From Leptolyngbya sp. FACHB-261 (GTDB lineage: Bacteria; Cyanobacteriota; Cyanobacteriia; FACHB-261): DNA of 64,000 bases. The translations under genes and the position numbers were made by a program. The notes under the pieces were generated by a model. The model made no database searches and had not been told where the DNA came from. It saw only the letters and a list, made by a program, of their open reading frames with translations. Positions 20,305 to 43,350 of the stretch are shown one piece after another. Location of the stretch: positions 186,001-250,000 of the forward strand of contig NZ_JACJPL010000027.1 in the NCBI RefSeq assembly GCF_014696065.1, given 5' to 3'. Numbering within the stretch: position 1 is the stretch's first letter; every line of letters starts with the position of its first letter.

Positions 20305-22137
20305 TCAGACGGGCAGCGACTGAAGGTTGTGGTAGGACCAGTAAAGCCCGCGGGTTGCCAGCAGTTGGTCATGTTCGCCCTGTTCCACGATTTGTCCTTT
20401 CTCCAACACCACAATCCGGTCAGCATTACGCACCGTCGATAAACGGTGAGCAATCACAATCACTGTTCGGTTGCAGCGCAGCCGCTCGATCGCCTCTTGA
20501 ACCAGATGCTCTGACTGAGAATCTAGGGCGCTGGTGGCCTCATCCAAAATCAGAATCTCTGGGTCACGGAGCATAGCCCGGGCAATCGAGATGCGCTGAC
20601 GCTGACCGCCAGACAGTTTCACACCCCGATCGCCAACTACAGTATCGTAGCCCTCTGATAATTGACAGATAAAGCCGTGAGCATTAGCGAGACGAGCAGC
20701 CTCAACGACCTTAGCTCTATCTACACCCTTAAGCCCGTAGGCAATATTCTCCAGAATCGAAGCGTTGAAAATATAAGTATCCTGGCTAACAATGCCAATG
20801 CATTGGCGCAAAGAGATTGGATCGTACTGGCGAATATCTTTGCCATCTAGGGTGATAGAACCTTCGGTGACCTCATAAAAACGTGGGATCAAGGCCGCGA
20901 TTGTAGACTTTCCGGCACCTGATCCTCCCACCAGGGCAATCGTTTTGCCTTGGGGAATTTCTAGCGAAATACCATTGAGAACATTGGTTCTACCGTTGTA
21001 AGAAAAACGCACATTGTTGAAGGCAATGCTTTGGCGTAAGCCCCTAAAAGGTTCAGATCCTGACGGCACGGGATACTGAAGCGGTATGCTCAAAGCTTCA
21101 GCAACTTTAGCTAGTGAAGATTGGCTCTCCTGAACCAAGCCTCTAGCGCTGTTGATACGTTTGGTGATTGGAACAATTTTGATCAAAACCAGCATGAAGA
21201 TGAGCAACTCTGACGTACCGAGTAGCCCTTTAGAAATTAATAATGTATAGCTGCCCACTAATATCAGCATGGCAGCCATGAGCGTGACGAGCTCGGTGAG
21301 TGGGTCAATCAGGCTTTGCTTTCTGGCTAAGCCTAAATTGGCCTCCATGTAGTCATCACAAATGTGATTGAACCGCTCTAGTTCAAACTCTTCGGTGCCA
21401 TAGGACTTAACAATGCGGATGCCACCTAGCGAGTCCAGAGCTAGAGCATTGAGGGCACGTTTAGCAACTACCACTGCGTTGCCATCTCTCTTGATCTGCC
21501 GGAGCAAAACCGTAAGCCCTAAAGCAACGCTTGAGATCAAAAGCGCAGTGAGCAAGGTCATGCGCCAGGACACCAGTAGAAGCACACCCAGGTAAGCGAG
21601 CAGGATCATCAAGCTCGACAGGCCTAAGAAAAAGGCTCCTATCAGCTTCTTCGTATCGAGCAGCTCACCATGAAGCGTACTCATGATCTTACCGATCTGA
21701 GCTTCATCGAAAAAGCTCATTGGCGAATAGAGGTAAATTTGATAGATCCGTTTTTTGAGCAGCTCGATTACCGATTCCCGGTAGAAAGCGGTGATGACTT
21801 GCGCAATATAATAAAAGGCGCTTTTAAGAATAAAAACCCCTACCAAAATCAAGGCAAAAAGCCCAACAATCTCACTCTTGGGTTGCTGAACTAGCCAGCT
21901 GTTTAAGCCTTCAGTAAAACGGGTTTGAGGAAAGTAAGACGTATTACCTTCGTTCAGCAGAATCTTTAAAAAAGGAATCATCAGGCCGATGCTAATTGCG
22001 TCTAGTACAGACGCGACAAACATCATGACCAAGCCAAAGTACAAAGACTTACGAGGCACTTGCCAAACAGAGGAGGCTAGCCTTTCAAAGGGTCCTAGTT
22101 TTTTAAAAAATCTGGGGTTGGAAAGGGCTTTGATCAT
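20305..22137 (-). CDS. MsbA/HepA-like ABC exporter (fused permease-ATPase)
   Basis: A 610-residue half-transporter: a six-helix type IV exporter domain (about residues 30-330), then an ATPase domain with Walker A GGSGAGKST, signature LSGGQRQRISIARA, Walker B ILILDEATSALD and an H-loop in VIAHRLST. It would work as a homodimer. Its place at the distal end of the polysaccharide locus suggests export of a lipid-linked glycan. HepA, the heterocyst-envelope polysaccharide exporter of Anabaena, has this size and architecture, but orthology is not shown. Substrate inferred from context only. Confidence 0.88.
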   Translation of the reverse strand: MIKALSNPRFFKKLGPFERLASSVWQVPRKSLYFGLVMMFVASVLDAISIGLMIPFLKILLNEGNTSYFPQTRFTEGLNSWLVQQPKSEIVGLFALILVGVFILKSAFYYIAQVITAFYRESVIELLKKRIYQIYLYSPMSFFDEAQIGKIMSTLHGELLDTKKLIGAFFLGLSSLMILLAYLGVLLLVSWRMTLLTALLISSVALGLTVLLRQIKRDGNAVVVAKRALNALALDSLGGIRIVKSYGTEEFELERFNHICDDYMEANLGLARKQSLIDPLTELVTLMAAMLILVGSYTLLISKGLLGTSELLIFMLVLIKIVPITKRINSARGLVQESQSSLAKVAEALSIPLQYPVPSGSEPFRGLRQSIAFNNVRFSYNGRTNVLNGISLEIPQGKTIALVGGSGAGKSTIAALIPRFYEVTEGSITLDGKDIRQYDPISLRQCIGIVSQDTYIFNASILENIAYGLKGVDRAKVVEAARLANAHGFICQLSEGYDTVVGDRGVKLSGGQRQRISIARAMLRDPEILILDEATSALDSQSEHLVQEAIERLRCNRTVIVIAHRLSTVRNADRIVVLEKGQIVEQGEHDQLLATRGLYWSYHNLQSLPV

Positions 22138-22175: not shown

Positions 22176-23405
22176 TTAAACACTCATCAGTTTTTGGTAC
22201 TGGTCAACCAGTTGGTCATTCAGTCGATACAGGTCATAATGCTGCTCTACATAGGCCCGTCCAGCTCGGCCCCTGTCAGGCCATTGTTCTGGGTGTTCGA
22301 TCAACTCGTTCAATCTTGCAGCCAGAGTCTCACTGTCTCGCTCAGGCACCAGGAAGCCAGAGATACTATCTTCAATGAGTTCAGGGATACCCCCATGCCA
22401 AGTACCAATGACGGGTAAGCCCATTGCCATTGCTTCCTTTAAGACATTTACCGGTGCGTCTTGATTACCATCTCTGCTAGTCACACAGGGCGCGATGAAA
22501 ATATGGGCGCTGTCAAGAATCTCAATCAATTCCTGCTGTTGCTTGCGGCCCACTAATTTGACGGCATGGCTAACTTCCAATTGGTCAATTAGTTGCTGTA
22601 ATTCAGGTTTGAGTGGGCCATCGCCAACCACAATATATTCAACATCTCGATTGGTTTGAATCAGTTGAGCAACCGCCCGAATACCATATTCGATGCCCTT
22701 TTTCTCAACTAAGCGACCCGAGGTGACAATGCGAACTCGTCCATCGGCAGGCCAATGACGGGGTGCAAATCGAAAACGGCTACAGTCAATACCTGAACGG
22801 TAAACAGAGATTTTTTGTTCTTCGCAACCTAGTTTGATCAACCGTTGTTTAAAGTAGTCACAGTTGGGCATGAAAAGATCGCCGACTTGAAAGAGCTGGT
22901 CATAAACTCTGTCACCAACCTCCTGAAGATACTTGCTAATGTCATGGCCTCGAAACGCAACCACTAGTTTGCCCTGCTTCCCATTCAGGGCGTGAAATGA
23001 CATGCCTCTAAATCCCAGAGTTCCAAACTGGCAGTGAATAATGTCGTAAGGCTTTTTGTCTAGTAATGCCACAAGTGAATATAGCAGCCCAAATGAGGTG
23101 ACCTGGCTGCCATGCGCGAAGACATTGAGAGTATCTAAAAACCTTAAGGGGGCCCTGTGGAAATGGGTGAGCAGCAATCTCAGTGCCTTGAGCGCACATT
23201 CCGAGCGGTCTAGCGGCCGCCGAATAAAATAGGTGCGCTCCAGAAGGTTGTACTTTTCCACATCGGGATGAATTTTTAATGTGTCACCTGGTTGATTGGC
23301 GTAAATATCAACTTCATGCCCCCGGTCAATCAAGCCTGTAATCTGATTCAGGACGAAGGTTTCCGACAGAACAGGAAATTCACCAACCAGGCAAGCTACT
23401 CTCAT
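22176..23405 (-). CDS. Glycosyltransferase family 4, WcaL/ExpC-like
   Basis: A 409-residue GT-B retaining transferase. The N-terminus MRVACLVGEFPVLSETFVLNQI is the pattern of colanic-acid WcaL-type transferases. The donor-binding half has TSGRLVEKKGIEYGI, GDGPLKPEL, and the acidic motif KEAMAMGLPVIGTWHGGIPELI with the E-x7-E spacing (GxPV). It probably adds one sugar to the repeat unit on a lipid carrier at the cytoplasmic face. It lies 38 bases upstream of the ABC exporter gene on the same strand, so the two are likely cotranscribed. Donor and acceptor unknown. Confidence 0.88.
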   Translation of the reverse strand: MRVACLVGEFPVLSETFVLNQITGLIDRGHEVDIYANQPGDTLKIHPDVEKYNLLERTYFIRRPLDRSECALKALRLLLTHFHRAPLRFLDTLNVFAHGSQVTSFGLLYSLVALLDKKPYDIIHCQFGTLGFRGMSFHALNGKQGKLVVAFRGHDISKYLQEVGDRVYDQLFQVGDLFMPNCDYFKQRLIKLGCEEQKISVYRSGIDCSRFRFAPRHWPADGRVRIVTSGRLVEKKGIEYGIRAVAQLIQTNRDVEYIVVGDGPLKPELQQLIDQLEVSHAVKLVGRKQQQELIEILDSAHIFIAPCVTSRDGNQDAPVNVLKEAMAMGLPVIGTWHGGIPELIEDSISGFLVPERDSETLAARLNELIEHPEQWPDRGRAGRAYVEQHYDLYRLNDQLVDQYQKLMSV

Positions 23406-23636: not shown

Positions 23637-24611
23637 CTAGGGCCCTACAGAAAGCCCCGGCATTTGGACAGACCTATCTTTGAAGCGTTGTAGCAAACGG
23701 TTAGTTACTTGTGGCGAGAGCAGGCGCATCAGCGACCATTTCAGCAGCAACTTTTGGGTCTCCCGCTTGAATAACATCTTGGGGTACAGGTGCAACATCT
23801 CACCCAGTCTTTGACCTGCTTGCTGCACTCCTTCGGTCGTAGGGCGGTGAAACAGATACATACGCGCTACATGCTGATAAACATTGGCGAGACTTTGTTT
23901 TTTGAGCGGTTGAAGTTCTATGGGTGCGGCTTGATATGACTTTTCCACAGCTAGCAGGCTGTACTTCTCTCGAAAGTCAAGGTTAGCCGATAGAGAACTA
24001 GAGGACTGACGATACTGAATTTGGTACTGGGGAACTAGAACAAAAGGCCACTGAGCAGCCAAACGTTGCCAGTAATCCCGGTCGTGAGCCAGTTTCAGGG
24101 CAGGATCGAACTCGCCAACTGAGTCAATTGCGGCTTTACGAATCAGCGGAATCGAGCCACAGACAAAGAAATTTCTAAGCAGGAGCTGAGCGTAGACATT
24201 GCCCTCAAAATGAACAGGCTTCTGCGCGTACAAAAACTTGCCATCCTTGTCCACGAATTCTGTCCAGCTATAAGCAACACCTGCTTCTGGATGTTGCTGC
24301 AATGCCCGAAGCTGAGCCTCTAGTTTATCTGGCGTCCAAAGATCATCAGCATCGAGAAAAGCAATAAACTCGCCTTTAGCTTGGACCATGCCTCGATTGC
24401 GGGCAATGGCAGCACCAGCGTTCTCATAAGAGAAAACTTTTAGACGCTCATCTTCAATGGTTTCTAGAACCTTCAATGTGCGATCTCTAGAGCCATCATC
24501 AACAACAATCAATTCAAAATCAGTGAAAGTTTGCTGCTGAACTGAGCGAATCGTTTCTAGAATAGTGCCTTCAGCATTGTAGGCAGGAACAATGACAGAT
24601 ATCACTGGCAT
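23637..24611 (-). CDS. Glycosyltransferase family 2 (A)
   Basis: A 324-residue GT-A inverting transferase with the GT2 start ISVIVPAYNAEGTILETI, nucleotide-binding ELIVVDDGSRD, the DxD-type DADDLW at about residues 91-96, and the acceptor-side HDRDYWQRLA. It closely resembles the GT2 at 32453-33463 along its length, including the C-terminal helical region (PLKKQSLANVYQHVA), so the two are paralogues. A possible minus-strand promoter precedes it (24623-24652). No membrane segment. Confidence 0.87.
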   Translation of the reverse strand: MPVISVIVPAYNAEGTILETIRSVQQQTFTDFELIVVDDGSRDRTLKVLETIEDERLKVFSYENAGAAIARNRGMVQAKGEFIAFLDADDLWTPDKLEAQLRALQQHPEAGVAYSWTEFVDKDGKFLYAQKPVHFEGNVYAQLLLRNFFVCGSIPLIRKAAIDSVGEFDPALKLAHDRDYWQRLAAQWPFVLVPQYQIQYRQSSSSLSANLDFREKYSLLAVEKSYQAAPIELQPLKKQSLANVYQHVARMYLFHRPTTEGVQQAGQRLGEMLHLYPKMLFKRETQKLLLKWSLMRLLSPQVTNRLLQRFKDRSVQMPGLSVGP

Positions 24612-25074: not shown

Positions 25075-26409
25075 TCAATGTCCTATTGAGCTCTGAGGAA
25101 TTAACTCGGGAAAGGGCATGCCGAAGTCAGGTTTATCGGTCCGTTGACCCAGCACCCATTGATAAACTGCCAGAGTTTGCTTCGCCTTAGCCTGCCAGGT
25201 GAACTGCTCCAAGGCTCGATTTCGGGCATTCTGGCTCATCTGAGCTAGACCACTGGGATCGGACGCCAAGCGATTGAGCAAATCGCGTAAACGGGTTACC
25301 AGTTCTGTTCTTGAACCTAGAGGTAGGGCATAGCCAGTTGATGGGGTAACGAGTTCACCTGGCCCCCCGTAGTTAATCACGATCGGGACTAGCCCTATTG
25401 ACATCGCCTCAAGTACCACCGCGCCGCCAAATTCGCGAATGCTGGGGAAGGCAAAGACATCGGCTTCAGCGAGATAGCCTTGAACGCGAGTGTGCTCCAC
25501 TCGACCTGTGAGTTCAATGCCTTCACTAACCCCTTCCCGTTCGATTAACGCCTTGAGCACAGGGAGTTCAGGCCCATGCCCCAAGATTTTCAGGGTTAAT
25601 CTTCCTGCTCGGACCAACGGAGCCACTGCCTCAATCAGCATGTCAGCGCCTTTGTAAGGAACCAGGCGTCCGACAAAAATAGCTCGCAGAGGCTGAGTAA
25701 CTTGACGACTACGCTGCCGAGAAAAGCGTTGGGGATCAATAGCATTCTCAGGCATGTAAATGCACTTGTCTCGATAGCGAGCGGGCATCTGCTCCCAAGT
25801 AGCCTGTGAGCCAACCATAATCGCCGCCGCATGGCGTCGAGTCACAGTGTAACCAGGCAACAGCCGATACATCCAGCGAATATAGGACAGCCACTCTTTC
25901 TCCTTGCGACGCAAGGCATCAAAGCCTCGAGGCCAGGGGAGGCCACCGTTGAGAGGACCGAGCACGAAGGGTACACCCGCCTGCGCACACTTGCGGGCAA
26001 GCAGGCTAGGGACCGTCGGGCTGACCGGTGTGACCCGATGAACGAGGTCGAACTGACCTGCGCTGATTCGATCTCCGAACTGTTGCCAGACTAAGTGCTC
26101 AAAGTAGTAGTACGACAGAACCGATAGCGCCATCACTGTTGTCCAGCCTCGGCCCGCTCCACCGCGCAGCCAAGATGACGCCTGATTAATCGGCTTGCTG
26201 ATTCGCTTGACATCAATTGCAGTGAAGTCTTTACCCTCCACACAACCGGCTCGGACAAAGCCTTTGCGATTGCGCGAATGGGTGACGATGTAAGCATCAG
26301 TCAGAGCTGCAATTGCTTGGCTATGGGACCAACCAACCAGGGGCACGCTGCCCCATTCAGGGTTAGCCAGTTCAGCAATCAGCAGGACACGGGGACGGGC
26401 TAGAGGCAT
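25075..26409 (-). CDS. Glycosyltransferase family 4
   Basis: A 444-residue GT-B transferase. The N-domain has the PEWGSVPLVGWSHSQAI region and GPLNGGLPWPRG; the C-domain has AIFVGRLVPYKGADMLIEAV, KILGHGPELPVL, and the donor motif REFGGAVVLEAMSIGLVPIVINYGGPGELV. A conserved Phe-Gly-Gly before Glu is typical of GT4 members acting on surface polysaccharides. No membrane span. It is downstream of the GH74-like gene on the same strand; substrate unknown. Confidence 0.87.
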   Translation of the reverse strand: MPLARPRVLLIAELANPEWGSVPLVGWSHSQAIAALTDAYIVTHSRNRKGFVRAGCVEGKDFTAIDVKRISKPINQASSWLRGGAGRGWTTVMALSVLSYYYFEHLVWQQFGDRISAGQFDLVHRVTPVSPTVPSLLARKCAQAGVPFVLGPLNGGLPWPRGFDALRRKEKEWLSYIRWMYRLLPGYTVTRRHAAAIMVGSQATWEQMPARYRDKCIYMPENAIDPQRFSRQRSRQVTQPLRAIFVGRLVPYKGADMLIEAVAPLVRAGRLTLKILGHGPELPVLKALIEREGVSEGIELTGRVEHTRVQGYLAEADVFAFPSIREFGGAVVLEAMSIGLVPIVINYGGPGELVTPSTGYALPLGSRTELVTRLRDLLNRLASDPSGLAQMSQNARNRALEQFTWQAKAKQTLAVYQWVLGQRTDKPDFGMPFPELIPQSSIGH

Positions 26410-26503: not shown

Positions 26504-28798
26504 TTAGGACGTGCCATAGTAAACTCCCCTGCCGCCAGTACCAACGAAGACCAAACCAAATTGCTGACGACTCGCTTCCATCACTTTCGGGTCTTTGCCA
26601 ATTGGTCTTTGTGGGTCACCCAGCCGTCGCCAAGTTTTACCCCGATCTAGCGAACGGAAAATGCCTTCGCCGAGGTCAGCTAGCTCACCGTTCAGCTCAC
26701 CGTATAGATATAAGGCTGGTGTTGTACTACCCGATTGCGGTTTGCCAAAAGCAAACAGATACGCTCTTTTCACACCTGAGACGGCATTGAACGTTTTACC
26801 ACCATTGGTTGATTGGTAAAGCCCTTGCTGGTCCAGACTCAGCCAAACTTCTCCCTCAACACCTGGCACTGTTTTCAGCGAGTGCCAATCTTCACGAGGT
26901 AGGCTGCGATTGACAGGCACAAACGAGTTCCCACCATCAATGCTGCGATAAACTTTGCCATTGCTGTAGTAATAGAAAACATCACCATTGACCTTATCGG
27001 CAGTCAAAGATTGGGACCAATTCCACGGTCCTTTACTGGCATCTGGCAAACCAGAAACCCTTTGCCAGGAAGCACCACCATCGGTACTACGTAGGGCTTG
27101 GTCTTCACTAATCGTCACTACAAACACATCGGGCTGAGTTGCCGATACCGCAACCCGTAAGGGCATTTTATTGGTGGGAAAGTCTGCAAATGGTTGCCAG
27201 GTTCGACCACCATCGGTTGAGGTTGCTCCGTTATAAGTCGAGTTCCAGCGTCTGGCGCCCACACGCACCAGCCGCTGAGGATCAGCTTCACAAAAGGCGA
27301 TGCTGTAGGTGTCTTGCAGCGACTCTCCAGCTTTGCCTAATTCCAATTTCCGGGACGGATATTGGTCCAATCCCTTGTCGTGATAGAAGCCTTCGACATC
27401 AGCCGCGCCACTAATCAACAAGGCTCCTTCAGGCGGCGATACCAAGCTAAATAAAACCAATTCTTCGTGGCCTTGCTCTTGGTTAGTCCAGGTTGCTGGC
27501 TGGCGACTAATATCGTCAGTGCGCCAGATACCATACCAATCTGTTAGCCACACTCTACCCGTGTTCTTCGGGTCAAAAGCGATGGCAGCAATCCAGGGTT
27601 GCGAACGCATAAAACGAGTCCACCAAGGCACAGTGCTATGCCTACGGCGAGCTTGTTCGGTCCAACTCGATCCACCATCTAAAGAGCGATAGATTTTTGT
27701 TGAGGTTGTCTCCCCTAAGCTAACCAAAAGGTCGTTGGCATTGCTCGGATTAACGCTCAGGGCGTTGAAGGTTTTAGCTCTTCTAAAGGGTGTGATATCT
27801 TGCCAGGTGTCATTAGCGTATTTGCTTACCCCTGATTCGTGGGTCACATAGAGGCTGCCATCCCTAGCCACAGCTAAACGCTTAGGTTCGGCTGGGCTAC
27901 CTGTTAATTTACTCCAAGTGATTCCGGCATCAGGGGACTGATAAATGCCGTCTTTATAAGCGACTGCGTAAACAAATCCGGGCACTTGCGATTTGAACAC
28001 AACGGCTGTGATGCCAATACCAGGTTTGAGGGTGCCGGGGAAAGCAGTGACTGGGTGCCAATTCAAACCAGCATCCAAGGACTGCCAAAGCCCATCTCGC
28101 CGAGAACCGAAAAAAAGCATTCTGGAATCCTGCGGATTCACAGCTAATCTTTCGCCAGTCCAACGTAGTTTTTCATTGCCGCCCATTTTCAAATCCAGGT
28201 TTAATTTAGTCCAGATTTCACCTCGGTTTGTGGACTTGAAAATCGTGCCCTGATGTGGCCACCAACGGGCAGTGTAATTGCCAACTGCAATGTAAACAAG
28301 ATCAGGATTGTTGGGATCAAGTGCTAGCGCCTCACCCCCATAGTAATTTTTTTGGGCTAACGGAAAATGGTCCGTGAGTGGAATCCATCTTCGATCAGCA
28401 GCATTCCAGCGATAAAAACCGCCGACATCAGTTTTGATGTAAATCAGATCAGCTTGCAGCGGGTGCAGATAGATGCCAGTAACATAGCCGCCACCCCCAA
28501 TAGCGACATTGGTTCTTCCCAAAACGGCGTTACGTTGATATTCTGAAGCACTTCCTGAAACAGGTCCAGAATTGGAAGAATTTAAAAATTCACCACCCAT
28601 CCTGCCAACTTGAGGCAATCCGAAAACTGCCAAGATCAGCAGCAGGAGCAACAGCTGTCGCCCCCTACGTTGATGGAACCAACGAAGTCCCTTGGTCAGG
28701 AGCTGAAGCGCAAGTTGAGACTGTCCCACCAGGAAAACTACTAACCCGGCAAGGATCAATCCCGTAACTGCCCCTGTAAAGACCAGCAGCTCACTCAT
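26504..28798 (-). CDS. Membrane-anchored GH74-like beta-propeller glycanase
   Basis: 764 residues: two hydrophobic segments at the N-terminus (about 7-27 and 48-64), then beta-propeller repeats with many Asp-box motifs (RSLDGGSSW, STDGGRTW, STDGGASW, SLDRGKTW). It matches GH74 endo-xyloglucanase signatures: VAIGGGGYVTGIYLHP, IKTDVGGFYRW with Asp124 at the catalytic-base position, TGERLAVNP, and GAADVEGF with Asp467 at the catalytic-acid position. GH74 enzymes cut beta-1,4-glucan backbones. In a polysaccharide assembly locus it may trim or edit the polymer outside the membrane. BNR annotations without GH74 activity are the main alternative. Confidence 0.72.
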   Translation of the reverse strand: MSELLVFTGAVTGLILAGLVVFLVGQSQLALQLLTKGLRWFHQRRGRQLLLLLLILAVFGLPQVGRMGGEFLNSSNSGPVSGSASEYQRNAVLGRTNVAIGGGGYVTGIYLHPLQADLIYIKTDVGGFYRWNAADRRWIPLTDHFPLAQKNYYGGEALALDPNNPDLVYIAVGNYTARWWPHQGTIFKSTNRGEIWTKLNLDLKMGGNEKLRWTGERLAVNPQDSRMLFFGSRRDGLWQSLDAGLNWHPVTAFPGTLKPGIGITAVVFKSQVPGFVYAVAYKDGIYQSPDAGITWSKLTGSPAEPKRLAVARDGSLYVTHESGVSKYANDTWQDITPFRRAKTFNALSVNPSNANDLLVSLGETTSTKIYRSLDGGSSWTEQARRRHSTVPWWTRFMRSQPWIAAIAFDPKNTGRVWLTDWYGIWRTDDISRQPATWTNQEQGHEELVLFSLVSPPEGALLISGAADVEGFYHDKGLDQYPSRKLELGKAGESLQDTYSIAFCEADPQRLVRVGARRWNSTYNGATSTDGGRTWQPFADFPTNKMPLRVAVSATQPDVFVVTISEDQALRSTDGGASWQRVSGLPDASKGPWNWSQSLTADKVNGDVFYYYSNGKVYRSIDGGNSFVPVNRSLPREDWHSLKTVPGVEGEVWLSLDQQGLYQSTNGGKTFNAVSGVKRAYLFAFGKPQSGSTTPALYLYGELNGELADLGEGIFRSLDRGKTWRRLGDPQRPIGKDPKVMEASRQQFGLVFVGTGGRGVYYGTS

Positions 28799-28831: not shown

Positions 28832-29881
28832 TCACACCAGTTGCCCAACCTGTTGCTCCTGCGCTTGGTCCTGCAAAATGCGACGCTTTTGATTGGCACC
28901 GGTTACTTTCAGTGCCAGAGCTTCTAATTGGTAGTACAGAGGCTGGGGTAGAAGCCAGATCAAATAGGCAGCTGCCCCTGTCAAAACCGTCCGTCGAGGT
29001 TCTTCCAGTAGCATTCGCCAGTAAGTTGTTAGAGCCTGTTGAAAGAGTTGCACGGCAACAGCACCGTCCCGCAAACTGACAGCTCGGCGGGCCAGGTAGC
29101 GCAGGTGATAAGCACGAGCTGGATTCTCCCACTGGGCGACTAGGGCAGGCGCATAGGCGCGGGTTTTCTCAATTACTTGCTCCCAAGAGGCCTGCTTTCT
29201 GAGTAGATTCGCCGATACCCCGCCTGAATTGACCCGATACAAAGTCAAAGCCTCAGGAATACCCTCAACTTGCCAAGGAGTTTGAATTGCAATGCGAAAC
29301 CAGCAATCTAAATCCTGCGAGCCCTGAAGCTGTTCATCCCAATAAAAATCCTGGAGGGTACCATCAAGCTCATCCTGAAATTTGATTGCTTCAAATACGG
29401 CCCGTCGGATCACTGCCGCCGAACCATTGCCAATTGGGTTACGGCACAGAGTATCGGCAAGGGTGATTCCCTGAAGCTTGGGCATTTGATAAATGCCTAA
29501 AGGATTGCCTGCCTCATCAATAAAGGCTGAACGGCTGAAGCTAATACCAACCTTAGACGATTGCTCCAAATGCTCAATGTGTTTAGCTAGTTTTTCTGGC
29601 AGCCACAAATCATCGCCATCCAAGAAGGCAAGGTATTGACCTTGAGCCTGACGGATACCGGCATTTCTGGCAGCATTAGCACCCCGATTTTTCTGACGGA
29701 TGATCCGAATGCGAGGGTCTTGGAACTGTTGGCAAATTTCAACGCTGCGGTCGGGTGAACCATCATCGACAATCAATAATTCAAAGTCTTGGTAGGTCTG
29801 CGCCAAAACTGATTGCACCGTAGCAGCAATATACTGCTCTACTTTGTAAACCGCGATAATGACTGAAACGTTCGGAGTCAT
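28832..29881 (-). CDS. Glycosyltransferase family 2 (B)
   Basis: A 349-residue GT-A transferase with VSVIIAVYKVEQYIAATVQ, ELLIVDDGSPDRS, and the DxD-type LAFLDGDDLW motif. It is strikingly similar to the next upstream gene (29967-30998) over its whole length, including the shared DPRI segment, NPIGNGSAAV, ALTLYRVNSGG and the C-terminal LIWLLPQ, so the two arose by tandem duplication. About 85 bases separate them. They probably add two different or successive residues to the repeat unit. Confidence 0.87.
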   Translation of the reverse strand: MTPNVSVIIAVYKVEQYIAATVQSVLAQTYQDFELLIVDDGSPDRSVEICQQFQDPRIRIIRQKNRGANAARNAGIRQAQGQYLAFLDGDDLWLPEKLAKHIEHLEQSSKVGISFSRSAFIDEAGNPLGIYQMPKLQGITLADTLCRNPIGNGSAAVIRRAVFEAIKFQDELDGTLQDFYWDEQLQGSQDLDCWFRIAIQTPWQVEGIPEALTLYRVNSGGVSANLLRKQASWEQVIEKTRAYAPALVAQWENPARAYHLRYLARRAVSLRDGAVAVQLFQQALTTYWRMLLEEPRRTVLTGAAAYLIWLLPQPLYYQLEALALKVTGANQKRRILQDQAQEQQVGQLV

Positions 29882-29966
29882 AGACCTTCATTACCTCATG
29901 CAACCTGAAATTGAGTCTTTGCCCACGCTGCTCAGAACCGTTGTTCAGAACTTGTAAAACACGGTT

Positions 29967-30998
29967 TCACGCTGATTGTCCAGACTGCTCTTGTAAAATG
30001 CGACGTTTTTGCAGCGTGCTTGCAATTTTTGCTGCCGAGTTTTCAAGTTGGTTGTAGAGCGATTGAGGTAGGAGCCAGAGTAAATAGGCCGCTGCCAAAA
30101 TACGCAGTGTACGGCGTGGTTCTTGCCAGAGGATGCGTGGATCCAGGCGTAGGGACCGATGCAGAAATTGCACAGCCATTGGTCCTGCTTGAAGCCGGAC
30201 GGCACTGCGAGCCAGGTAGCGCAAGCGATAGGCTGTGCCCAACTTGCCCCATTGCTCGGCCAGATCTGGAGCGTAGGATTGCACCTTTTCAACCACCTGT
30301 TGCCAGGCAGCCAACTGCTGTTCTAAGTTGGCTGAAAGCCCTCCTGAGTTAACACGATATAGGGTCAAGGCTTCAGGTAAACCTTCGATTTGCCAATCCG
30401 TCAAACTGGCGATGCGTAACCAACACTCAATATCTTCAGCTCGACGGAACTGCTCGTCAAAGTAGAAGTCTTCAGGTGTGCCATAGAGATTGGCTTGAAA
30501 GCGAATAGCCTCTAATGTTTGTCGACGCAGAACAGCAGCGGAACCATTGCCAATGGGGTTAACTCGAAACAGAGAAGCGGCGGTAATGTTCTGAAGCTGT
30601 GGCATCAAGTAGGTTCCTAGCGCCTCTCCTGCCTCGTTGATCAAGGCCGAACGGCTAAAACTTACGCCCACTTCGGGTGAACGTTCGAGATGTTCCACAT
30701 GTTTAGCTAGCTTCTCAGGCAGCCATAAGTCATCTCCATCTAGAAAGGCCAGATACTCACCCTGAGCCTGCCGAATCCCTGTATTTCTAGCTCCAGCCAA
30801 CCCCCGGTTCCGCTGATGAATAACTTTGATTCTGGGGTCTGAGAACTGCTGGCAAATCTCTACACTGCGCTGCGGGCATTGATCATCAACGATCAGCAGC
30901 TCAAAATCTGAAAAAGTTTGCTTAAGCACAGACTGCACAGTGGCAGCGATATATTTCTCGACGCAGTGGACTGGAATAATGACAGCTACTTTAGGCAT
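29967..30998 (-). CDS. Glycosyltransferase family 2 (C), tandem paralogue of B
   Basis: 343 residues with VAVIIPVHCVEKYIAATVQ, ELLIVDDQCPQRS and LAFLDGDDLW. In the first nucleotide-binding motif the usual DDGS is DDQC, a substitution its paralogue does not share, which may mark divergence in donor use. The acidic DGDD motif is retained, so it is probably active. It follows the Wzx gene on the same strand. Confidence 0.86.
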   Translation of the reverse strand: MPKVAVIIPVHCVEKYIAATVQSVLKQTFSDFELLIVDDQCPQRSVEICQQFSDPRIKVIHQRNRGLAGARNTGIRQAQGEYLAFLDGDDLWLPEKLAKHVEHLERSPEVGVSFSRSALINEAGEALGTYLMPQLQNITAASLFRVNPIGNGSAAVLRRQTLEAIRFQANLYGTPEDFYFDEQFRRAEDIECWLRIASLTDWQIEGLPEALTLYRVNSGGLSANLEQQLAAWQQVVEKVQSYAPDLAEQWGKLGTAYRLRYLARSAVRLQAGPMAVQFLHRSLRLDPRILWQEPRRTLRILAAAYLLWLLPQSLYNQLENSAAKIASTLQKRRILQEQSGQSA

Positions 30999-31051: not shown

Positions 31052-32335
31052 TTAGACATTGGAGGTGAGCAGCTTGGATGAGTGAAAGACATGATTCGTA
31101 GCCCAGATCACGAACAGGGGCAGAAAAATCGCGTGAGTTAACAGAACAGAAGTTGCAACCCCCCAGGCCTGCCAGCGGACGCCAATTAATAAGCCAATCG
31201 CGAAGATGGTTGTAAAGAGCACATTCCATCTCAAGTCAAGATTTGGTTTACCAACAGCGGTTAGCAACTGAGAAGCGGCCTCGGCGAAAGGTCTTGGAAT
31301 AGCCGACAAGCAGATAATGATCAAAATAGGAATGGCAGCGGTCCACTCTTTACCAAAAACGGTCGGTACGTAGAAAGACGCGAGACTTGACTGCAAAACA
31401 ACCAAAGGAACAATAATGCAGGCAATGATTTTCAGGCTGCTCCAATAGCGTTTCCTAAATTCCAACCAGTTGGAACGAGCAGCACACAAATGGGGCAATA
31501 ATGCTGAGTTGAGCGCACTAATAATGCTGAGACTGATACCCAGACCAGCATTAAAGGCAAAGTAATAAATTCCGAGTTCTGCGATGCCAATGAAGCGGCC
31601 AACGATGAGATAGTCTAGATTATTTCTCAGGGCCTTCAGCAACTCAACTCCTAAAATATTTCTGCCGAAACTAAAGATCTCTGGCCAATCTTTGGTTGTC
31701 AAGCCGGAGGTTGGCTGCCAACTGTGGTGGCTATAGTAAACCCAAACCCAAACTGGGGCGACTAAAACTCCCGGCAGAACAATTGCCCACATTCCTAGCC
31801 CTAAACAAGCCAGTAGCGCAGACAGAACGTAATTTGAGGAGTTCTGAAGAGTTTTCGCTAAAGCTGCGATTTCAAGACGGTTCTCCCGATGGATGAGAGC
31901 GGCTTGTACCGCAGCCATAGGCGTGAGCAAGTAAACCAGGGCAGAGACACAAATGGGTAGGATCAGCTTGCTATCGTGATAGAACCAAGCAACTGGAAAG
32001 GCAACCAGGCATTGGCCTACGAATAAGCCACAAAAAACTACCCAATTTAACCAGTAGCCAGCGTTGCACAAGCGCTCTAGATCTTCTGAATCGGCCTGGA
32101 CAATTTTTGCGCCAATGCCAATGCGCGTGAAGACCTGCGTGAACTCTCGAACGGCTAAGACCACTGCCCCCAACCCGTAGTCATAGGGAGTCAGGAAGCG
32201 GGCTAGAATGACCGTTACCGCTAAGCGCACCAGCCGAATTGCGATTTCTGATCCGCCTAGCCAGCCCAAATTACGAATGAACTTGCTTCTCAACTGTTGC
32301 TTGAGTTTCACCCCAATTTTGTCAACCAGTATCAC
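31052..32335 (-). CDS. Wzx-type polysaccharide flippase
   Basis: A 427-residue polytopic protein of the MOP superfamily (polysaccharide transporter family), with about 12 hydrophobic helices. The N-terminal pattern IRLVRLAVTVILARFLTPYDYGLGAVV and the AALIHRENRLEIAALA loop are typical. It would flip undecaprenyl-diphosphate-linked repeat units across the cytoplasmic membrane for Wzy-dependent polymerisation. It is followed by the GT2 pair and preceded by another GT2. It partners logically with the Wzy-like gene at 33804-35099. Confidence 0.87.
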   Translation of the reverse strand: MILVDKIGVKLKQQLRSKFIRNLGWLGGSEIAIRLVRLAVTVILARFLTPYDYGLGAVVLAVREFTQVFTRIGIGAKIVQADSEDLERLCNAGYWLNWVVFCGLFVGQCLVAFPVAWFYHDSKLILPICVSALVYLLTPMAAVQAALIHRENRLEIAALAKTLQNSSNYVLSALLACLGLGMWAIVLPGVLVAPVWVWVYYSHHSWQPTSGLTTKDWPEIFSFGRNILGVELLKALRNNLDYLIVGRFIGIAELGIYYFAFNAGLGISLSIISALNSALLPHLCAARSNWLEFRKRYWSSLKIIACIIVPLVVLQSSLASFYVPTVFGKEWTAAIPILIIICLSAIPRPFAEAASQLLTAVGKPNLDLRWNVLFTTIFAIGLLIGVRWQAWGVATSVLLTHAIFLPLFVIWATNHVFHSSKLLTSNV

Positions 32336-32452: not shown

Positions 32453-33463
32453 TCAATTAGCGGCAGGTCGCAAACTTAGAGAAACTCCCTCCTCTGATAG
32501 CACTTGACTGGCAGCAGTGGGGAAATGTTTACCCAGAAAACCGACCCAGTCACTTGCCAGCTGATAAGGCAATAACTGCAACAGCCCCAATCTTAATGCC
32601 AGCCGCTGCGTTTTGCGCTCCATCAAAAGATCAGGATTTAAGCGAATTGCCATTTGTAGCCGTTGAGAAGCTTGCTTAATACTCTGCGAGTTGAGGGCGT
32701 GAGTTGAATAGAGTTGAGCAATGTATCGATAGGTGTTAGCAAGGCTACATTTTTTCAAGTACTGCAACTCTAACGGTGCCGACTGGAAGGCCCTCTCAAT
32801 AACCTGCAGATTGTACTTTTCCATAACGTCTACTTTGGAGGTCATAGACTGTGAGGACTGCCGATACAAAATCTGATACTTTGGCACCACCGCAAACTGG
32901 CAGCGAGAAGCTAAGCGCAGGTAATAGTCCCAATCCTCTGCCGACTTAAGTGTTGGCTCAAAGCGACCAGCACACTCGACAACTCGGCGACGAACCAGGA
33001 TATTGGAACCATTCGAGATGAAGTTCTTAACCAGTAGATGGGGATAGATATCACCCTCTAGAAAAATTGGCTCACGGGCATACAAAAATCGTCCTGCGGC
33101 ATCGATAAATGCAGTCCAACTATAGGCAGCCCCAATTTCGGGAGATTTTTGAATCGCCATCAACTGTAGCTCTAGTTTATCTGGAACCCACAAATCATCG
33201 GCGTCAATGAAAGTAATGAACTCCCCTGTAGCTATGCCAATGCCGCGATTACGAGCCATGGGCAAGCCTGCATTGGCATAGGTAAAGATTTTCAGCCTTG
33301 GGTCTTGAATCTGCTCAAGAATGTCTAAGGTTTTATCAGTCGAGCCATCATTGATGACAATTAGTTCAAAGTCTGTGAAAGTTTGTTGCTGAACGGACTG
33401 AATAGTTTCAGAAATTGTCTGTTCAGCATTGTAGGCAGGAACGATGACAGAGATTGTCGGCAT
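32453..33463 (-). CDS. Glycosyltransferase family 2 (D), paralogue of A
   Basis: 336 residues with ISVIVPAYNAEQTISETI, ELIVINDGSTD, and DADDLW. It is clearly homologous along its length to the GT2 at 23637-24611 (shared QQQTFTDFELIV, VPDKLE/TPDKLE, YRQSS, LKKCSLANTY). The C-terminal 100 residues are helical with no recognised domain. First gene after the terminator that ends the Wzy transcript, so it may open a second transcription unit whose promoter lies in 33464-33713. Confidence 0.87.
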   Translation of the reverse strand: MPTISVIVPAYNAEQTISETIQSVQQQTFTDFELIVINDGSTDKTLDILEQIQDPRLKIFTYANAGLPMARNRGIGIATGEFITFIDADDLWVPDKLELQLMAIQKSPEIGAAYSWTAFIDAAGRFLYAREPIFLEGDIYPHLLVKNFISNGSNILVRRRVVECAGRFEPTLKSAEDWDYYLRLASRCQFAVVPKYQILYRQSSQSMTSKVDVMEKYNLQVIERAFQSAPLELQYLKKCSLANTYRYIAQLYSTHALNSQSIKQASQRLQMAIRLNPDLLMERKTQRLALRLGLLQLLPYQLASDWVGFLGKHFPTAASQVLSEEGVSLSLRPAAN

Positions 33464-33803: not shown

Positions 33804-35099
33804 TTAGCCAAGAGCCCCAACACCCATTGGCTGACTAGGTAGACTGGCTGCCATCCGCTTCTCCTTCAGCGCCAGACCAATGGAAACCAGACCGGGCCAA
33901 TAAACATAAGCCAAAGATTCTAAATTCTCGCCGAAAGAGTAGAGAAATAAGACCAAAATGACGCTCAAGCCTGCCTGGGCAATTTTGCTAGTTTGAGCCT
34001 TCAGCAATAGCTCAATAAAGCTCCAGGCAAAAGGGATTGCCAGGGCCATAAAACCCACTAAACCATGCGTAAATAGAACGCCAAACCAGGTATGGTGAGA
34101 GCCGATCGGCTTGAAGACCACAAGCTCAGGGCCTCGTCTCTCTTTTAAGCCATGCCCCCAAATCGGGGCATCATTCCACCACCGATACAGGGCAATACGG
34201 CCCAGAAGCTCTCTAATTTCTGAAGATCTTGCTCTTTGGCTGTCAAAGTAATTTTTGAAATCACGAAGTGCGCTCAGAAGTTGAAAGCCAAACAGACCTC
34301 CGAAAAAACTACCAACGCCAGCGGCAATCTGCATTTGAGGTCGGCTGACCCGAGCGAGAACATAAGTAGCAATTGGCACAAAGAACAAGCACACTAGGCC
34401 AAGCCGCGAGACCGATACCAGCGTCATTGCGATGGCACCAATCATGCCAATCCAACGCCATTTCCGATCTGGTTCTTGTGAGGCCAGCACGAAACAGACA
34501 TTGCCAACTAACCCCATCGCGGGTGACCAAGGTGCAAACAGTTGAAGGCGGATGCGTCCAGTTGATTCCATCACATAAAGGCCCACATTGTAATACTCTG
34601 GGCCAATACCGCCGATTTTTAATAGTGGAGAAGTGTATAGGATTCCGGGTAAATTTAGTTGACTGAGCAGATAGAGAACGGGAATAATCAGCAGGCTTTG
34701 CAAACAGAGAATGCAAATAGCTCGACTCAGCAGTTGGAATCGAATGTTGAGACAGCCGACTAAAGGAAACAGTGCTAACAGAGCCCAGGTTCTAGCAAAC
34801 CCGTTAATACTAGATTTAACGATTCGGAATGTATCCGCACCGAAGTCTGATAAGCCCATAACTAGGGCCAGTTCGATGAACAGAATAGAGATGGCCCATA
34901 CCCACACTCCTAGGGGAATGCGGACTCTGTCTTCAACTGGTGTTTGATCGGTTTGCTGCCAAAGCTTTTTACCCAAATACAGCACCAGCAACCACGCGAT
35001 TGCTGGTGCCGAAATATGTTGCGCCCCCAGAAAATACAGCAGGTAGGTGCCTATGATGTAGTACCAAACTACTTTCTCTTCTAGGTTTTGGGGCTTCAT
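33804..35099 (-). CDS. O-antigen ligase/Wzy-like polymerase
   Basis: A 431-residue polytopic protein with about 10-12 membrane helices and a large periplasmic loop near residues 270-330 (RALSALRDFKNYFD ... WWNDAPIWGHGLKERRG), then SHHTWFGVLFTHGLVGF. This is the Wzy_C layout of polymerases and ligases, with the loop's Arg and His residues typical of the family. It probably polymerises repeat units at the periplasmic face. Its ATG shares a base with the stop of the upstream GT4 (TAATG), so the two are translationally coupled. Confidence 0.83.
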   Translation of the reverse strand: MKPQNLEEKVVWYYIIGTYLLYFLGAQHISAPAIAWLLVLYLGKKLWQQTDQTPVEDRVRIPLGVWVWAISILFIELALVMGLSDFGADTFRIVKSSINGFARTWALLALFPLVGCLNIRFQLLSRAICILCLQSLLIIPVLYLLSQLNLPGILYTSPLLKIGGIGPEYYNVGLYVMESTGRIRLQLFAPWSPAMGLVGNVCFVLASQEPDRKWRWIGMIGAIAMTLVSVSRLGLVCLFFVPIATYVLARVSRPQMQIAAGVGSFFGGLFGFQLLSALRDFKNYFDSQRARSSEIRELLGRIALYRWWNDAPIWGHGLKERRGPELVVFKPIGSHHTWFGVLFTHGLVGFMALAIPFAWSFIELLLKAQTSKIAQAGLSVILVLFLYSFGENLESLAYVYWPGLVSIGLALKEKRMAASLPSQPMGVGALG

Positions 35100-36472
35100 T
35101 AGCGTCCGGCTCCAACACTAAGCGTTGATTGCGTGACCAAGCTCTGATAGAGCTCTGCAGTATCGGCTGCTTCCTCACTCATCGTGCGAAGGGGCTTAAT
35201 TCCTGCTCGTAGCTCTGCTAAGAGGATAGGATCGGTTGCCAATCGCGCCAATGCATCCGTCCAAGCTTGTACATCCGTAGGGGGCAGCAATAAGCCATCA
35301 ACCCCGTGCCTAATCAGCTCAGGAATTCCGCCCATATTTGAGCCTAGAACAGGCACCCCTGAGGCATGAGCTTCTAGAACAACCATCGGCCGGACATCGA
35401 ACCACTGGGCAGGCAAGGCAAACACATCAAAACCAGCCATAGCAGCGGGTACTTCCTCGCGAGCGAGCTTGGAGGCAACCCGGATGCGCGGCTCTTGTTC
35501 AATTTCAGCTAACAATCGTTGTTCATAAGGCTGGCTATCTGGCACTGCGTGAATCACTAACTCAATTGGAATCTCTGCTGGTAGTGCGCGAACCGCATCT
35601 ACCAAAATGTGGATTCCTTTCGTATGGTTCCAGCGTCCCAAAAAACCGATGCGCAGAGGCCCTGTTCTAGCTTGGGCCTGAGAACTTGGTTTAGGAAATG
35701 AATCAGGAATCCCTGTACGGCAGATGACTAGCTTATCTTCAGGAATGCCATTAATTAACAGCATCTCGTACAGACGCTCGCTAAGCGTGACAATTCGATC
35801 TGCGAACTTGGCCATTTCTAACAGGCCTTGCCGACGAGCTGCGATGTAGGCTGGCACAACTAAAGGCCGCACTATTGATCCTGCTGAGCCACTGGATGTA
35901 GCCAAGTGAGCACTTTGGGGCAGTGGCAACCTACTGAGCACTGATATAGGCAGGCGGCTTAGATTTCTGATCACTGGCTCAGGCAAATTGGCGGTTAAGT
36001 TGTCACAGCAGCGGCTACAACGCACTTCATCAATCTTGCCGTCGCAGGCTTCTTGACCATTCAGCATCAAGGTTTGCCGTTGACAGATAGCCTCTGGCAA
36101 GCGAATCGAGACAACTGTTGTCATGCCTAATTCTTTAGCTAGGCGCAAATGGGGTAAACCACAGCGAGGGTTCCACTGATGTTGATGGTAGAGATCGGCT
36201 CGCTGTGCTTTTAGCCAACGTGCGAAACGCTCAAAGCCACCGTGGGGAACCTCTCCATGATTGGGCTCCAGTCTAGGAGTGGACGAAATGGGATATCGAT
36301 AAACTTCAGTTCCAGCGTAATGATAGAAATCTTCCTGAGCGTTGCTGCTGGCTGCCGCAACTGTACTGTCTATGCCATGGGCCCGCAGAACCGGTAGTAG
36401 TTCACTGAGGCGAATTTGAATACCCCCACAGTCATCTGGGAGATAACGGGCAACTGCTTGGATCGTTTTCAT
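35099..36472 (-). CDS. Glycosyltransferase family 4 with Cys-rich insert
   Basis: A 457-residue GT-B transferase. The N-domain starts IQAVARYLPDDCGGIQIRL. Residues about 135-165 contain a Cys-rich insert (ACDGKIDEVRCSRCCDNL), seen in some surface-polysaccharide GT4s and possibly metal-binding. The C-domain has IGFLGRWNHTKGIHILV and the donor motif VVLEAHASGVPVLGSNMGGIPELI. Translationally coupled to the downstream Wzy-like gene by a one-base overlap. Substrate unknown. Confidence 0.86.
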   Translation of the reverse strand: MKTIQAVARYLPDDCGGIQIRLSELLPVLRAHGIDSTVAAASSNAQEDFYHYAGTEVYRYPISSTPRLEPNHGEVPHGGFERFARWLKAQRADLYHQHQWNPRCGLPHLRLAKELGMTTVVSIRLPEAICQRQTLMLNGQEACDGKIDEVRCSRCCDNLTANLPEPVIRNLSRLPISVLSRLPLPQSAHLATSSGSAGSIVRPLVVPAYIAARRQGLLEMAKFADRIVTLSERLYEMLLINGIPEDKLVICRTGIPDSFPKPSSQAQARTGPLRIGFLGRWNHTKGIHILVDAVRALPAEIPIELVIHAVPDSQPYEQRLLAEIEQEPRIRVASKLAREEVPAAMAGFDVFALPAQWFDVRPMVVLEAHASGVPVLGSNMGGIPELIRHGVDGLLLPPTDVQAWTDALARLATDPILLAELRAGIKPLRTMSEEAADTAELYQSLVTQSTLSVGAGR

Positions 36473-36536: not shown

Positions 36537-37226
36537 CTAACTCTGACAAACTTGCATCTCTTCGCGTTTGGAGATCACTTTGGCGGGAACTCCCACGGCA
36601 ACAGAATAGGGTGCAATGCTTTTGGTTACGACAGCTCCTGCACCAATGACACTGCCCCGGCCAATGGTGACACCATCCAATACCCTGACACCACTGCCTA
36701 ACCAGCAATCATCCTCAATCACAATACCTCGGTAATTACTTCCCTGTTCTTTGATAATTCGATCTCGATCAGAGAAGTTGTGATTGTTGGCATAGATGCT
36801 TGAGTGCGAGGCGATCAAGCAATCACGGCCAATCTTGATATAGCGTCCGGAAATGCAGGTGTAAGGACCGATATAAGTGTTTTCACCAATCTCAATATAG
36901 TCATCAAGACCGGGATGAGCTTTGATATCAATGCCCCGATCTAGGTGCACCCGATTGCCAAGTTTTATTTTACTATTCGGCCCTACATTTTTGATTCGTA
37001 CCTGCTGATCAATCCGAGTACCATGCCCTACTTCAATACGATCAGCTCTTACAAATTCAAAGCCAGGTTGAATTTGTACTGCAGTGCCTAATTGTCTAAA
37101 AATTAGACGGTACAGAAGCCTACGAAGAGTTTTTCCTGGGAAGTAGGGAACCCAACCGACCAGGGCAACAAGAACAAGTTCAGGCCAACGGAACCACTTT
37201 GCAGGTGAAAAAAGATCGATGCTCAT
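36537..37226 (-). CDS. Hexapeptide-repeat acyltransferase
   Basis: A 229-residue left-handed beta-helix enzyme. Hexapeptide repeats run from about residue 60 to 205 (VGHGTRIDQQVRIKNVGPN, IGENTYIGPYTCISG, IEDDCWLGSGVRVLDGVTIGRGSVIGAGAVVTKSI). An N-terminal amphipathic segment may touch the membrane. The residue pattern (SHSSIYANNHNF) places a likely catalytic His in the loop near residue 145. It probably O-acetylates a sugar of the polymer using acetyl-CoA. Usual family length. Confidence 0.85.
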   Translation of the reverse strand: MSIDLFSPAKWFRWPELVLVALVGWVPYFPGKTLRRLLYRLIFRQLGTAVQIQPGFEFVRADRIEVGHGTRIDQQVRIKNVGPNSKIKLGNRVHLDRGIDIKAHPGLDDYIEIGENTYIGPYTCISGRYIKIGRDCLIASHSSIYANNHNFSDRDRIIKEQGSNYRGIVIEDDCWLGSGVRVLDGVTIGRGSVIGAGAVVTKSIAPYSVAVGVPAKVISKREEMQVCQS

Positions 37227-37360: not shown

Positions 37361-39031
37361 TTAGTTAGCAAGGGCAACCGTTTCGAGCAGTGGCTTACCC
37401 TCGTAATGTTGAGGGATCGGCGCTCCCATCAGATTGAGAATAGTGGGGGCTAAGTCCAGCGCATGACCAACCGGAAGCTGAGAGCCAGGAACAATTCCAG
37501 GTCCCTGCGCTAGCAGAAATCCATTGGCTCGGTGACTGCCAGTACGGTTGTAAGGAACTGGACCAATTCGACCTAAGTCTGGGCTATCAACGACATCAGT
37601 GGCATATTCCTCTTGCCAAATCACAACTAGATCGGCATCAGGCAATTTGGGATCATTGTCCGTTGCTGATTGCCGGGTTCGCAGCACTTGTTTGACCGTC
37701 GGCTGACCAGTTCTGCCATCTTTAAGGGCATAGAGACAGCCACTTAATTGATCACAGAGAGCCTCATATTCAGAAGGGGTAACAACACCCTCTGGTTCGC
37801 GCCCTTGCAGGTTAATTCGAACGTAACCTTCCGAATAACTCGGAATCGCAAAGGCTTTCATCTGAGGCCAGAAAGGCTTGTACCATCTAGCTGGTTGAAA
37901 GAAGAGGGGATCAGCTTGTTTGTAGAGCTGGTGAGGTGAAACTAAATCGGGTTGCTCAGTGGTACCAATGAACTTCTCCAATAAGTTGAAAAGTTTGGTT
38001 GGTGCCTCGCGTCTTAGGAAGCAGCGGAGCTTATTAGAGTCATGCTTCTGGCTCCATATCTCTCCTAACCAGCCCCGTGACCTATAGGCTGTAATGGGAG
38101 GCTCTAGGGGTTCTTCCCTCTGACCTAGAGCAAGGCCAAATTTGCCTGGGTAAGAGAACCGATAAAGCAGCTCAGGTAAGAATAGCATACTGGGAAGGTC
38201 CATCACGTTAGTTCCCATGCCATGAGCCGCAAAAATTAAGATCGTAGCTTGCTCAGGAGCTTGGGCTAGAATCTCGCCAATAGCTTGATCCACTGCTTCA
38301 AAAATCGCCAACATAGCATCGTCAGGGCAGTGACCTGATTGCTTATGAACTAACTGCCCATAAAGGGGATGATCGGGTTGGCTAAGATGCCAAAAGAAAT
38401 GCCCTGCTGAATGGGTTTCGCCAAAGATGGTCAAAAACAAATCCCAAGGCTCGCGCTTTAATAAGTCTTGGCAAATGGCTGAGCGGCGGGTAATACCAGT
38501 CTCTAAAGATTGCTGAAGCTTCTTAAGCGCTGCTAAGTTTCGAGTATCAGCGTGGTCTCGGTTGAAGACTGGATGCTCACCATACTGCTCAACCAGTTCC
38601 TGCAATAAGCTTGGGGGTTGGGAGCTGCTGGGCGTCAGGGCAGAGTGCGCTCCCCAGGCCAGAACCTGCACACCATTCACCTGCTCAGACAAGGTGGATT
38701 GGGGCATATCAAAGACTGCGACTCGGTGCTCTTCTCCTAATGCATAGAAAGGCGAGTATTCTCTGAAATCGTAAGCGCCAATATCTTCAACCTCATAGCT
38801 ACCCTGCCGTAGTTTTACAGGCGACCAGTAGCCTGTCTTCTGCGGGGAACAGCCGGTCAAAAAGGTTGTCCAGGGCGTTTCGGCTCGGTAGTAGTCGATG
38901 TTTTTTAAGCGGGTGTAGGCTCCCTGCTCCCGTAAGCGATTGAGATTTTGCAAATATCCCTGCGACATCCAGTTCTCAAGCAGGGTAGGGTCTGCCGCAT
39001 CTAGTCCAATCGCAATCACAGGGCTTTTCAT
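37361..39031 (-). CDS. Alkaline-phosphatase-superfamily (phosphodiesterase-like) protein
   Basis: A 556-residue protein of the type I phosphodiesterase/nucleotide pyrophosphatase group. It starts KSPVIAIGLDAADP, with the first metal Asp in LDAAD and a Thr nucleophile candidate in ETPWTTFLTGCSPQKTG. Other metal-site segments are IFGETHSAGHFFWH, FAAHGMGTN (Asp of the usual DHG is Ala) and NGFLLAQGPG ... HALDLAPTILNLMG. No signal peptide, so it is probably cytoplasmic. I chose the ATG at 39031, which has GGAG six bases upstream, over the ATG at 39049. Its place in a polysaccharide locus suggests a role on phosphorylated sugars or glycan carriers. Confidence 0.78.
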   Translation of the reverse strand: MKSPVIAIGLDAADPTLLENWMSQGYLQNLNRLREQGAYTRLKNIDYYRAETPWTTFLTGCSPQKTGYWSPVKLRQGSYEVEDIGAYDFREYSPFYALGEEHRVAVFDMPQSTLSEQVNGVQVLAWGAHSALTPSSSQPPSLLQELVEQYGEHPVFNRDHADTRNLAALKKLQQSLETGITRRSAICQDLLKREPWDLFLTIFGETHSAGHFFWHLSQPDHPLYGQLVHKQSGHCPDDAMLAIFEAVDQAIGEILAQAPEQATILIFAAHGMGTNVMDLPSMLFLPELLYRFSYPGKFGLALGQREEPLEPPITAYRSRGWLGEIWSQKHDSNKLRCFLRREAPTKLFNLLEKFIGTTEQPDLVSPHQLYKQADPLFFQPARWYKPFWPQMKAFAIPSYSEGYVRINLQGREPEGVVTPSEYEALCDQLSGCLYALKDGRTGQPTVKQVLRTRQSATDNDPKLPDADLVVIWQEEYATDVVDSPDLGRIGPVPYNRTGSHRANGFLLAQGPGIVPGSQLPVGHALDLAPTILNLMGAPIPQHYEGKPLLETVALAN

Positions 39032-39100
39032 ACACTTCTCCAGAGCCATTAACGGATTTAAAAATTTGCAAGCTCAGAAATTTCAGTAAGGCAAAGCTGA

Positions 39101-43239: not shown

Positions 43240-43350
43240 GGGGCAACCTGTACTAACAAATGAGCTAACACACCTACAACGGTGCAAACGAGTAGATCCG
43301 GTAGCAATTAGCCCGGCAGTAATCAGCCTGTTACTCGAATGTGCTTTGGG

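Follow-up and report, generated by a model that had tools for sequence, protein, structure and literature searches.

The GH74 gene and its polysaccharide locus

The window analysed herein, a 64,000-nucleotide stretch of Leptolyngbya sp. FACHB-261 (NZ_JACJPL010000027.1, positions 186,001–250,000), encodes on its minus strand a full-length two-propeller protein of glycoside hydrolase family 74 (GH74). The open reading frame (ORF) spans 26504–28798 and is 764 residues long, and the plus strand across the same span contains many stops. All genes from 20305 to 43287 lie on the minus strand and include seven GT2/GT4 transferases. The GH74 gene is separated by 33 bp from its upstream neighbour and by 94 bp from its downstream one. 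An earlier note made from the DNA letters (the sequence-only reading) had placed it between glycosyltransferase genes, naming no strand, and this is confirmed, with a GT2 gene upstream and a GT4 gene downstream.

The family assignment was examined with single-sequence and profile searches. In a phmmer search against the PDB, 17 GH74 chains rank first, the best being 6p2m (ClGH74a; E = 1.4e-107, residues 96–762). A profile built from 29 cyanobacterial sequences matched GH74 structures with E-values from 5e-176 (CtXgh74A) to 3e-131, and the identity of the window protein to solved GH74 endo-xyloglucanases is 28–38%. Its Pfam matches are only Sortilin-Vps10, BNR and similar repeats, with no GH74 model among them; these matches reflect the common Asp-box repeats. 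By its own criterion, the sequence-only reading would have been refuted if VPS10/BNR had outscored GH74, whereas the profile placed sortilin at only about 1e-12. VPS10/BNR as the true family is thus ruled out, lying more than 160 orders of magnitude behind GH74 in E-value, and the sortilin/VPS10 fold reached a Foldseek TM-score of at most 0.26, compared with 0.60–0.67 for GH74. Against the F510_1955 family glycosylhydrolase model (NF045728), the window protein scored 113.7 bits, under the curated cut-off of 175.

Table 1 Features of the polysaccharide locus around the GH74 gene. TM, transmembrane segment; PCP, polysaccharide co-polymerase.
Feature	Position	Strand	Remarks
ABC transporter, membrane and ATPase domains fused	20305..22137	-	Locus edge
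GT4 glycosyltransferase, WcaL-like	22176..23405	-	Under cut-off
GT2 glycosyltransferase	23637..24611	-	
GT4 glycosyltransferase directly downstream of GH74	25075..26409	-	EpsH family 582 bits, below 800-bit cut-off
GH74 two-propeller glycanase, 764 aa	26504..28798	-	Catalytic domain ~97–764; candidate catalytic Asp124, Asp467
Predicted N-terminal membrane hairpin of GH74, codons 1–67	28598..28798	-	Hydropathy: segments 6–24 and 49–67; basic loop between
GT2 glycosyltransferase directly upstream of GH74	28832..29881	-	Most conserved GH74 neighbour
GT2 glycosyltransferase	29967..30998	-	64% identical to GT2 28832..29881
Wzx-type flippase	31052..32335	-	Polysacc_synt_3, E 1e-52
GT2 glycosyltransferase	32453..33463	-	
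Wzy-like polymerase/ligase, multi-TM	33804..35099	-	No Pfam match of its own; orthologues at L003 and L005 match Wzy_C above cut-off
GT4 glycosyltransferase	35099..36472	-	
Hexapeptide (acyl)transferase	36537..37226	-	
Type I phosphodiesterase / alkaline-phosphatase-superfamily protein	37361..39049	-	
PMT_2-type membrane glycosyltransferase	39101..40774	-	
PCP/Wzz-like co-polymerase	40847..42379	-	TM near both ends, long middle; weak sub-threshold Wzz match
WecG/TagA/CpsF glycosyltransferase	42439..43287	-	

The surrounding genes (Table 1) indicate a locus of the Wzx/Wzy type, in which the flippase is recognised by Pfam, the putative polymerase through its orthologues, and the PCP-like protein by its topology together with a weak Wzz match. 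The PCP-like protein contains no kinase domain, so that length control in the style of Wzc, by PCP phosphorylation, seems to be missing at this locus. Promoter and terminator scans gave nothing beyond chance. The two GT2 genes at 28832–30998 are probably a tandem duplication, and two copies occupy the same place in several relatives.

Fold, active site and N-terminus of the window protein

An AlphaFold2 model of the window protein was built on only four sequences, with a mean pLDDT of 70 and a pTM of 0.53. The 23 best Foldseek matches to this model are all GH74 proteins, as are the 17 best in VIA-align (Z 38.8–41.3 over 612–627 residues), the next protein scoring 28.5. The modelled fold is consistent with two seven-bladed β-propellers, as judged by the overall fold match. 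The GH74 assignment of the sequence-only reading is therefore borne out over the whole catalytic domain by phmmer, the profile search and the predicted fold.

Both catalytic acids had been claimed to be present, and an alignment of Asp124 and Asp467 with known catalytic positions had been proposed as a check. In HMMER alignments, both residues fall on positions that were mutated in crystal structures. Asp124, within TDVGGFYRW, aligns with a position occupied by Asp in 2cn2 and by Ala in the mutant 2cn3, while Asp467, within GAADVEGF, aligns with Asp465, an Asp of 1sqj that is replaced by Asn in 2ebs (title: D465N). Both columns are invariant in all 29 aligned cyanobacterial sequences.

The subsites were compared with those of characterised relatives on the basis of one review and the HMMER alignments. 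The tandem Trp of the +3/+5 subsites (W347/W348 of PoGH74) is needed for processivity by PoGH74 and XEG74 (PMC10317168). In the window protein this place reads ETTSTK, and none of the 29 aligned sequences has WW there; the aromatic platform of known GH74 enzymes is altered. With the pair lost, the window enzyme, if active, is probably not processive in the known sense. The β-1,4-glucan or xyloglucan put forward by the sequence-only reading would be a candidate substrate at most, the Trp pair of processive xyloglucanases being missing throughout the clade.

GH74 enzymes are inverting, and cleavage, not transfer, would hence be expected of the window enzyme. A catalytically dead protein with the GH74 fold, acting as a scaffold or a lectin within the assembly complex, would agree with the altered platform and with the frequent use of β-propellers as binding platforms; however, an invariant catalytic Asp pair is not expected of a binding-only protein, and we regard this explanation as very improbable.

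At the N-terminus, the loop that separates the two hydrophobic segments is rich in Arg and Lys. The AlphaFold2 model places helices at residues 2–41 and 48–60, within its low-confidence part. By the positive-inside rule, the loop would be cytoplasmic, and the N-terminus and catalytic domain would lie outside the cytoplasm, in the periplasm. The hairpin is accordingly predicted to hold the enzyme in the periplasm, tied to the membrane. The N-terminal anchor of the sequence-only reading therefore stands as a prediction, but it consists of two hydrophobic segments, and the mode of anchoring is not shared by all relatives. A similar double segment occurs at L016, L025, L043 and L044, others have a single segment, and lipobox-like Cys motifs were found at L005, L019, L049 and L050. 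Since nearly all relatives carry an N-terminal TM, signal or lipobox-like motif, export appears to be the common trait, and the anchoring mode does not.

Gene order across cyanobacteria

To place the window locus in a wider context, 390 genomes sampled across the class were searched, of which 26 gave a GH74 match. Close relatives (at least 45% identity) were pooled with L003 and the two copies from the window genome, giving 20 distinct loci, the apparently identical records L004/L042 and L005/L053 being counted once each. Three loci (L025, L047 and L052) are cut by contig ends, which leaves 17 assessable loci, with about 20 kb seen per locus.

Fifteen of the 17 close relatives are surrounded by polysaccharide genes, and in 13 of these a homologue of the window Wzx occurs within about 20 kb. 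The two exceptions, which stand alone, are L046 and L012, the latter being the second copy in the window genome. Twelve of the 15 are directly preceded on the same strand by a homologue of the window GT2 genes, often with an overlap of a few bases, and the gene block PCP–Wzy–GT2–Wzx–GT2–GH74 is repeated in many genera. Distant cyanobacterial GH74 proteins (37–43% identity) also tend towards surroundings of transferase genes (L019, L054, L055, L057 and L058).

The Wzx subfamily of the window is present in 15 of 17 genomes with a close GH74, compared with 94 of 390 overall (Fisher 2e-8), and the two genes lie within 10 kb of each other in 12 of 17 genomes, where the chance for each was assumed to be 0.005. 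As the sampled genomes share ancestry, these p-values are too small, which has to be set against a functional link; yet many families and genera are involved. Mantel comparisons of GH74 distances with those of Wzx and Wzy (r = 0.66 and 0.62, respectively) fit co-inheritance but cannot tell it from the effect of species phylogeny.

Action of the enzyme on a polymer of the cell itself, as the sequence-only reading had suggested, is strongly supported by this synteny over many genera, whereas trimming, release or clearance would be possible forms of that action. The same evidence bears on a rival reading, in which a secreted nutritional or competitive xyloglucanase has come to lie in a polysaccharide locus by chance. 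The nearest solved GH74 relatives do degrade xyloglucan, the window genome has a stand-alone GH74 copy and two GH31 genes elsewhere, and the relative at L052 is a domain within a 3109-residue ORF. Chance placement is, however, difficult to reconcile with the recurrent place right after the GT2 gene of the locus in many genera, with the predicted membrane anchor, with the absence of the Trp pair of processive xyloglucanases, and with the finding that no uptake or side-chain glycosidase genes lie beside the window GH74. We judge this reading to be quite unlikely.

The stand-alone copy (L012:12997-15447; C28:98002-99981 in its genome) is 62–64% identical to the window protein. No polysaccharide genes were recognised around it, and its long N-terminus has no hydrophobic segment. 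At L052:9007-18336, the GH74 domain lies near the C-terminus of the ORF, behind a long repeat-rich stretch, and that genome also has an operon-type GH74 (L051).

Proposed function and related systems

In our view, the window protein is likely to be an extracytoplasmic GH74 endo-glycanase that is dedicated to a Wzx/Wzy-type exopolysaccharide (EPS) locus and cuts the polymer made by that locus. In the proposed scheme, the GT2, GT4 and WecG-type transferases would assemble repeat units on a lipid carrier, Wzx would flip them, and the Wzy-like protein would polymerise them together with the PCP-like one. GH74, which its N-terminal hairpin would keep at the periplasmic side of the membrane, would cut backbone bonds of this polymer. 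Most probably it would free chains or make them shorter so that they can be exported, or else remove those that have stalled in the periplasm. From sequence, release from the lipid carrier cannot be told apart from control of chain length, clearance or later remodelling.

Hydrolases encoded with their own Wzx/Wzy-made polymer are already known, including in other phyla. The closest functional parallel, by analogy, appears to be PslG (GH39) of Pseudomonas aeruginosa, which is associated with the inner membrane and whose deletion or active-site change lowers Psl; the Psl system has been compared with the Wzx/Wzy-type assembly of group 1 capsules, and an earlier study disagreed on the need for PslG (PMC6813494). 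Like the window GH74, PslG is a glycoside hydrolase within a Wzx/Wzy-like EPS operon, but it differs in family, polymer and phylum. Deletion of PrmQ (GH16) of the Sphingomonas promonan locus alters colony texture (PMC11340318), and WpsE (GH26) is encoded in the Actinoplanes wps-1 cluster, where hydrolases degrade the Wzx/Wzy-made matrix after assembly (PMC13390465). These two also belong to Wzx/Wzy-type EPS clusters, but to other families, and GH74 is not mentioned there. The eps locus of Myxococcus xanthus encodes a predicted hydrolase, EpsB, as well as EpsH (PMC7484181). The gene that follows GH74 in the window is EpsH-like, within the sub-threshold score given in Table 1.

The GH74 endo-xyloglucanases ClGH74a (6p2m), CtXgh74A (2cn2/2cn3) and PoGH74 (6mgj) share the fold and the catalytic Asp positions of the window protein. 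They are degraders of plant xyloglucan, however, whereas the window protein is predicted to be anchored, belongs to an assembly locus and has no tandem Trp. BcsZ, AlgL, PgaB and PelA are periplasmic polymer-cleaving enzymes encoded beside their own biosynthesis genes; their pathways are synthase-dependent, in contrast to the Wzx and Wzy-like proteins encoded here. In the open-access literature searched, we found no report of a GH74 enzyme in an EPS-locus role with conserved cyanobacterial gene order, and a report elsewhere is possible.

Several observations weigh against the proposed role. Most genomes with the Wzx subfamily of the window have no GH74, and in the 20 such loci retrieved no GH74 was found in the stretch, the order PCP–Wzy–GT–Wzx–GT2 often being the same; L078 is almost the window locus minus GH74. 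The pathway thus does not generally require the enzyme, and the stand-alone copy at L012 indicates that the family can serve outside such loci too. In addition, the OPX exporter (PF02563) and priming transferases (PF02397) are encoded elsewhere in the genome and not in the locus; their presence in such loci is common but not obligatory. A replacement glycanase was sought in a small sample of eight genes from the loci without GH74, in which a Pfam scan found no glycoside hydrolase but abhydrolases, transferases, a helicase, an ATP-grasp protein and one gene without a match.

The occurrence of similar loci both with and without GH74 points to a modular accessory that probably goes with certain polymers or uses. 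Genome G050 has no GH74 in its main locus (L085), and a GT2–GH74 pair lies on another contig (L014), which suggests that the two genes can move as a pair. In genome G076 (L037/L062; C11:120208-121524), an apparently decayed GH74 match contains an in-frame TGA and shares its 20 kb with a Wzx gene.

The loci without GH74 would also suit an enzyme that remodels the finished polymer outside the cell, in sheath softening, filament release or dispersal, and takes no part in assembly. The varied anchoring of relatives (hairpin, single TM or signal, lipobox-like) and the post-assembly action of the Actinoplanes hydrolases (PMC13390465) point in the same direction. Yet the predicted tie to the inner membrane, in the window protein and several relatives, would bring the enzyme to nascent and not finished polymer, and genes for later remodelling need no place in an assembly operon; remodelling as the sole function seems improbable to us.

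A more specific form of the endo-glycanase proposal is that GH74, anchored beside Wzy, acts as a chain terminator, severing the growing polymer from its lipid carrier and thereby setting chain length. Such a terminator would replace kinase-type PCP control, since the PCP-like protein of the locus has no kinase domain. We consider this an unlikely possibility.

The termination and length setting of Wzx/Wzy-made polymers are poorly understood, and the signal that ends polymerisation was still called unclear in a 2025 review (PMC12220298). An anchored glycanase with identifiable catalytic residues, present in some near-identical loci and not in others, makes a clean comparison possible. If the proposal is correct, it would give a biosynthetic role to GH74, a family so far known from the degradation of plant xyloglucan, and provide a tool enzyme for cyanobacterial slime.

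GH74-like proteins of 800–900 residues were also observed on two viral contigs (L065:4815-7511 and L063:1915-4314), next to terminase and head-tail genes in L065 and to a major head protein gene in L063. The first catalytic Asp is Asn in L065, and both are kept in L063; these may be phage-borne proteins that bind or cut polysaccharide. Just beyond the window locus, at 45799–48183, lies a gene for a Peptidase_C14 caspase-domain protein of 794 residues, which adjoins lgt and AhpC/redoxin genes.
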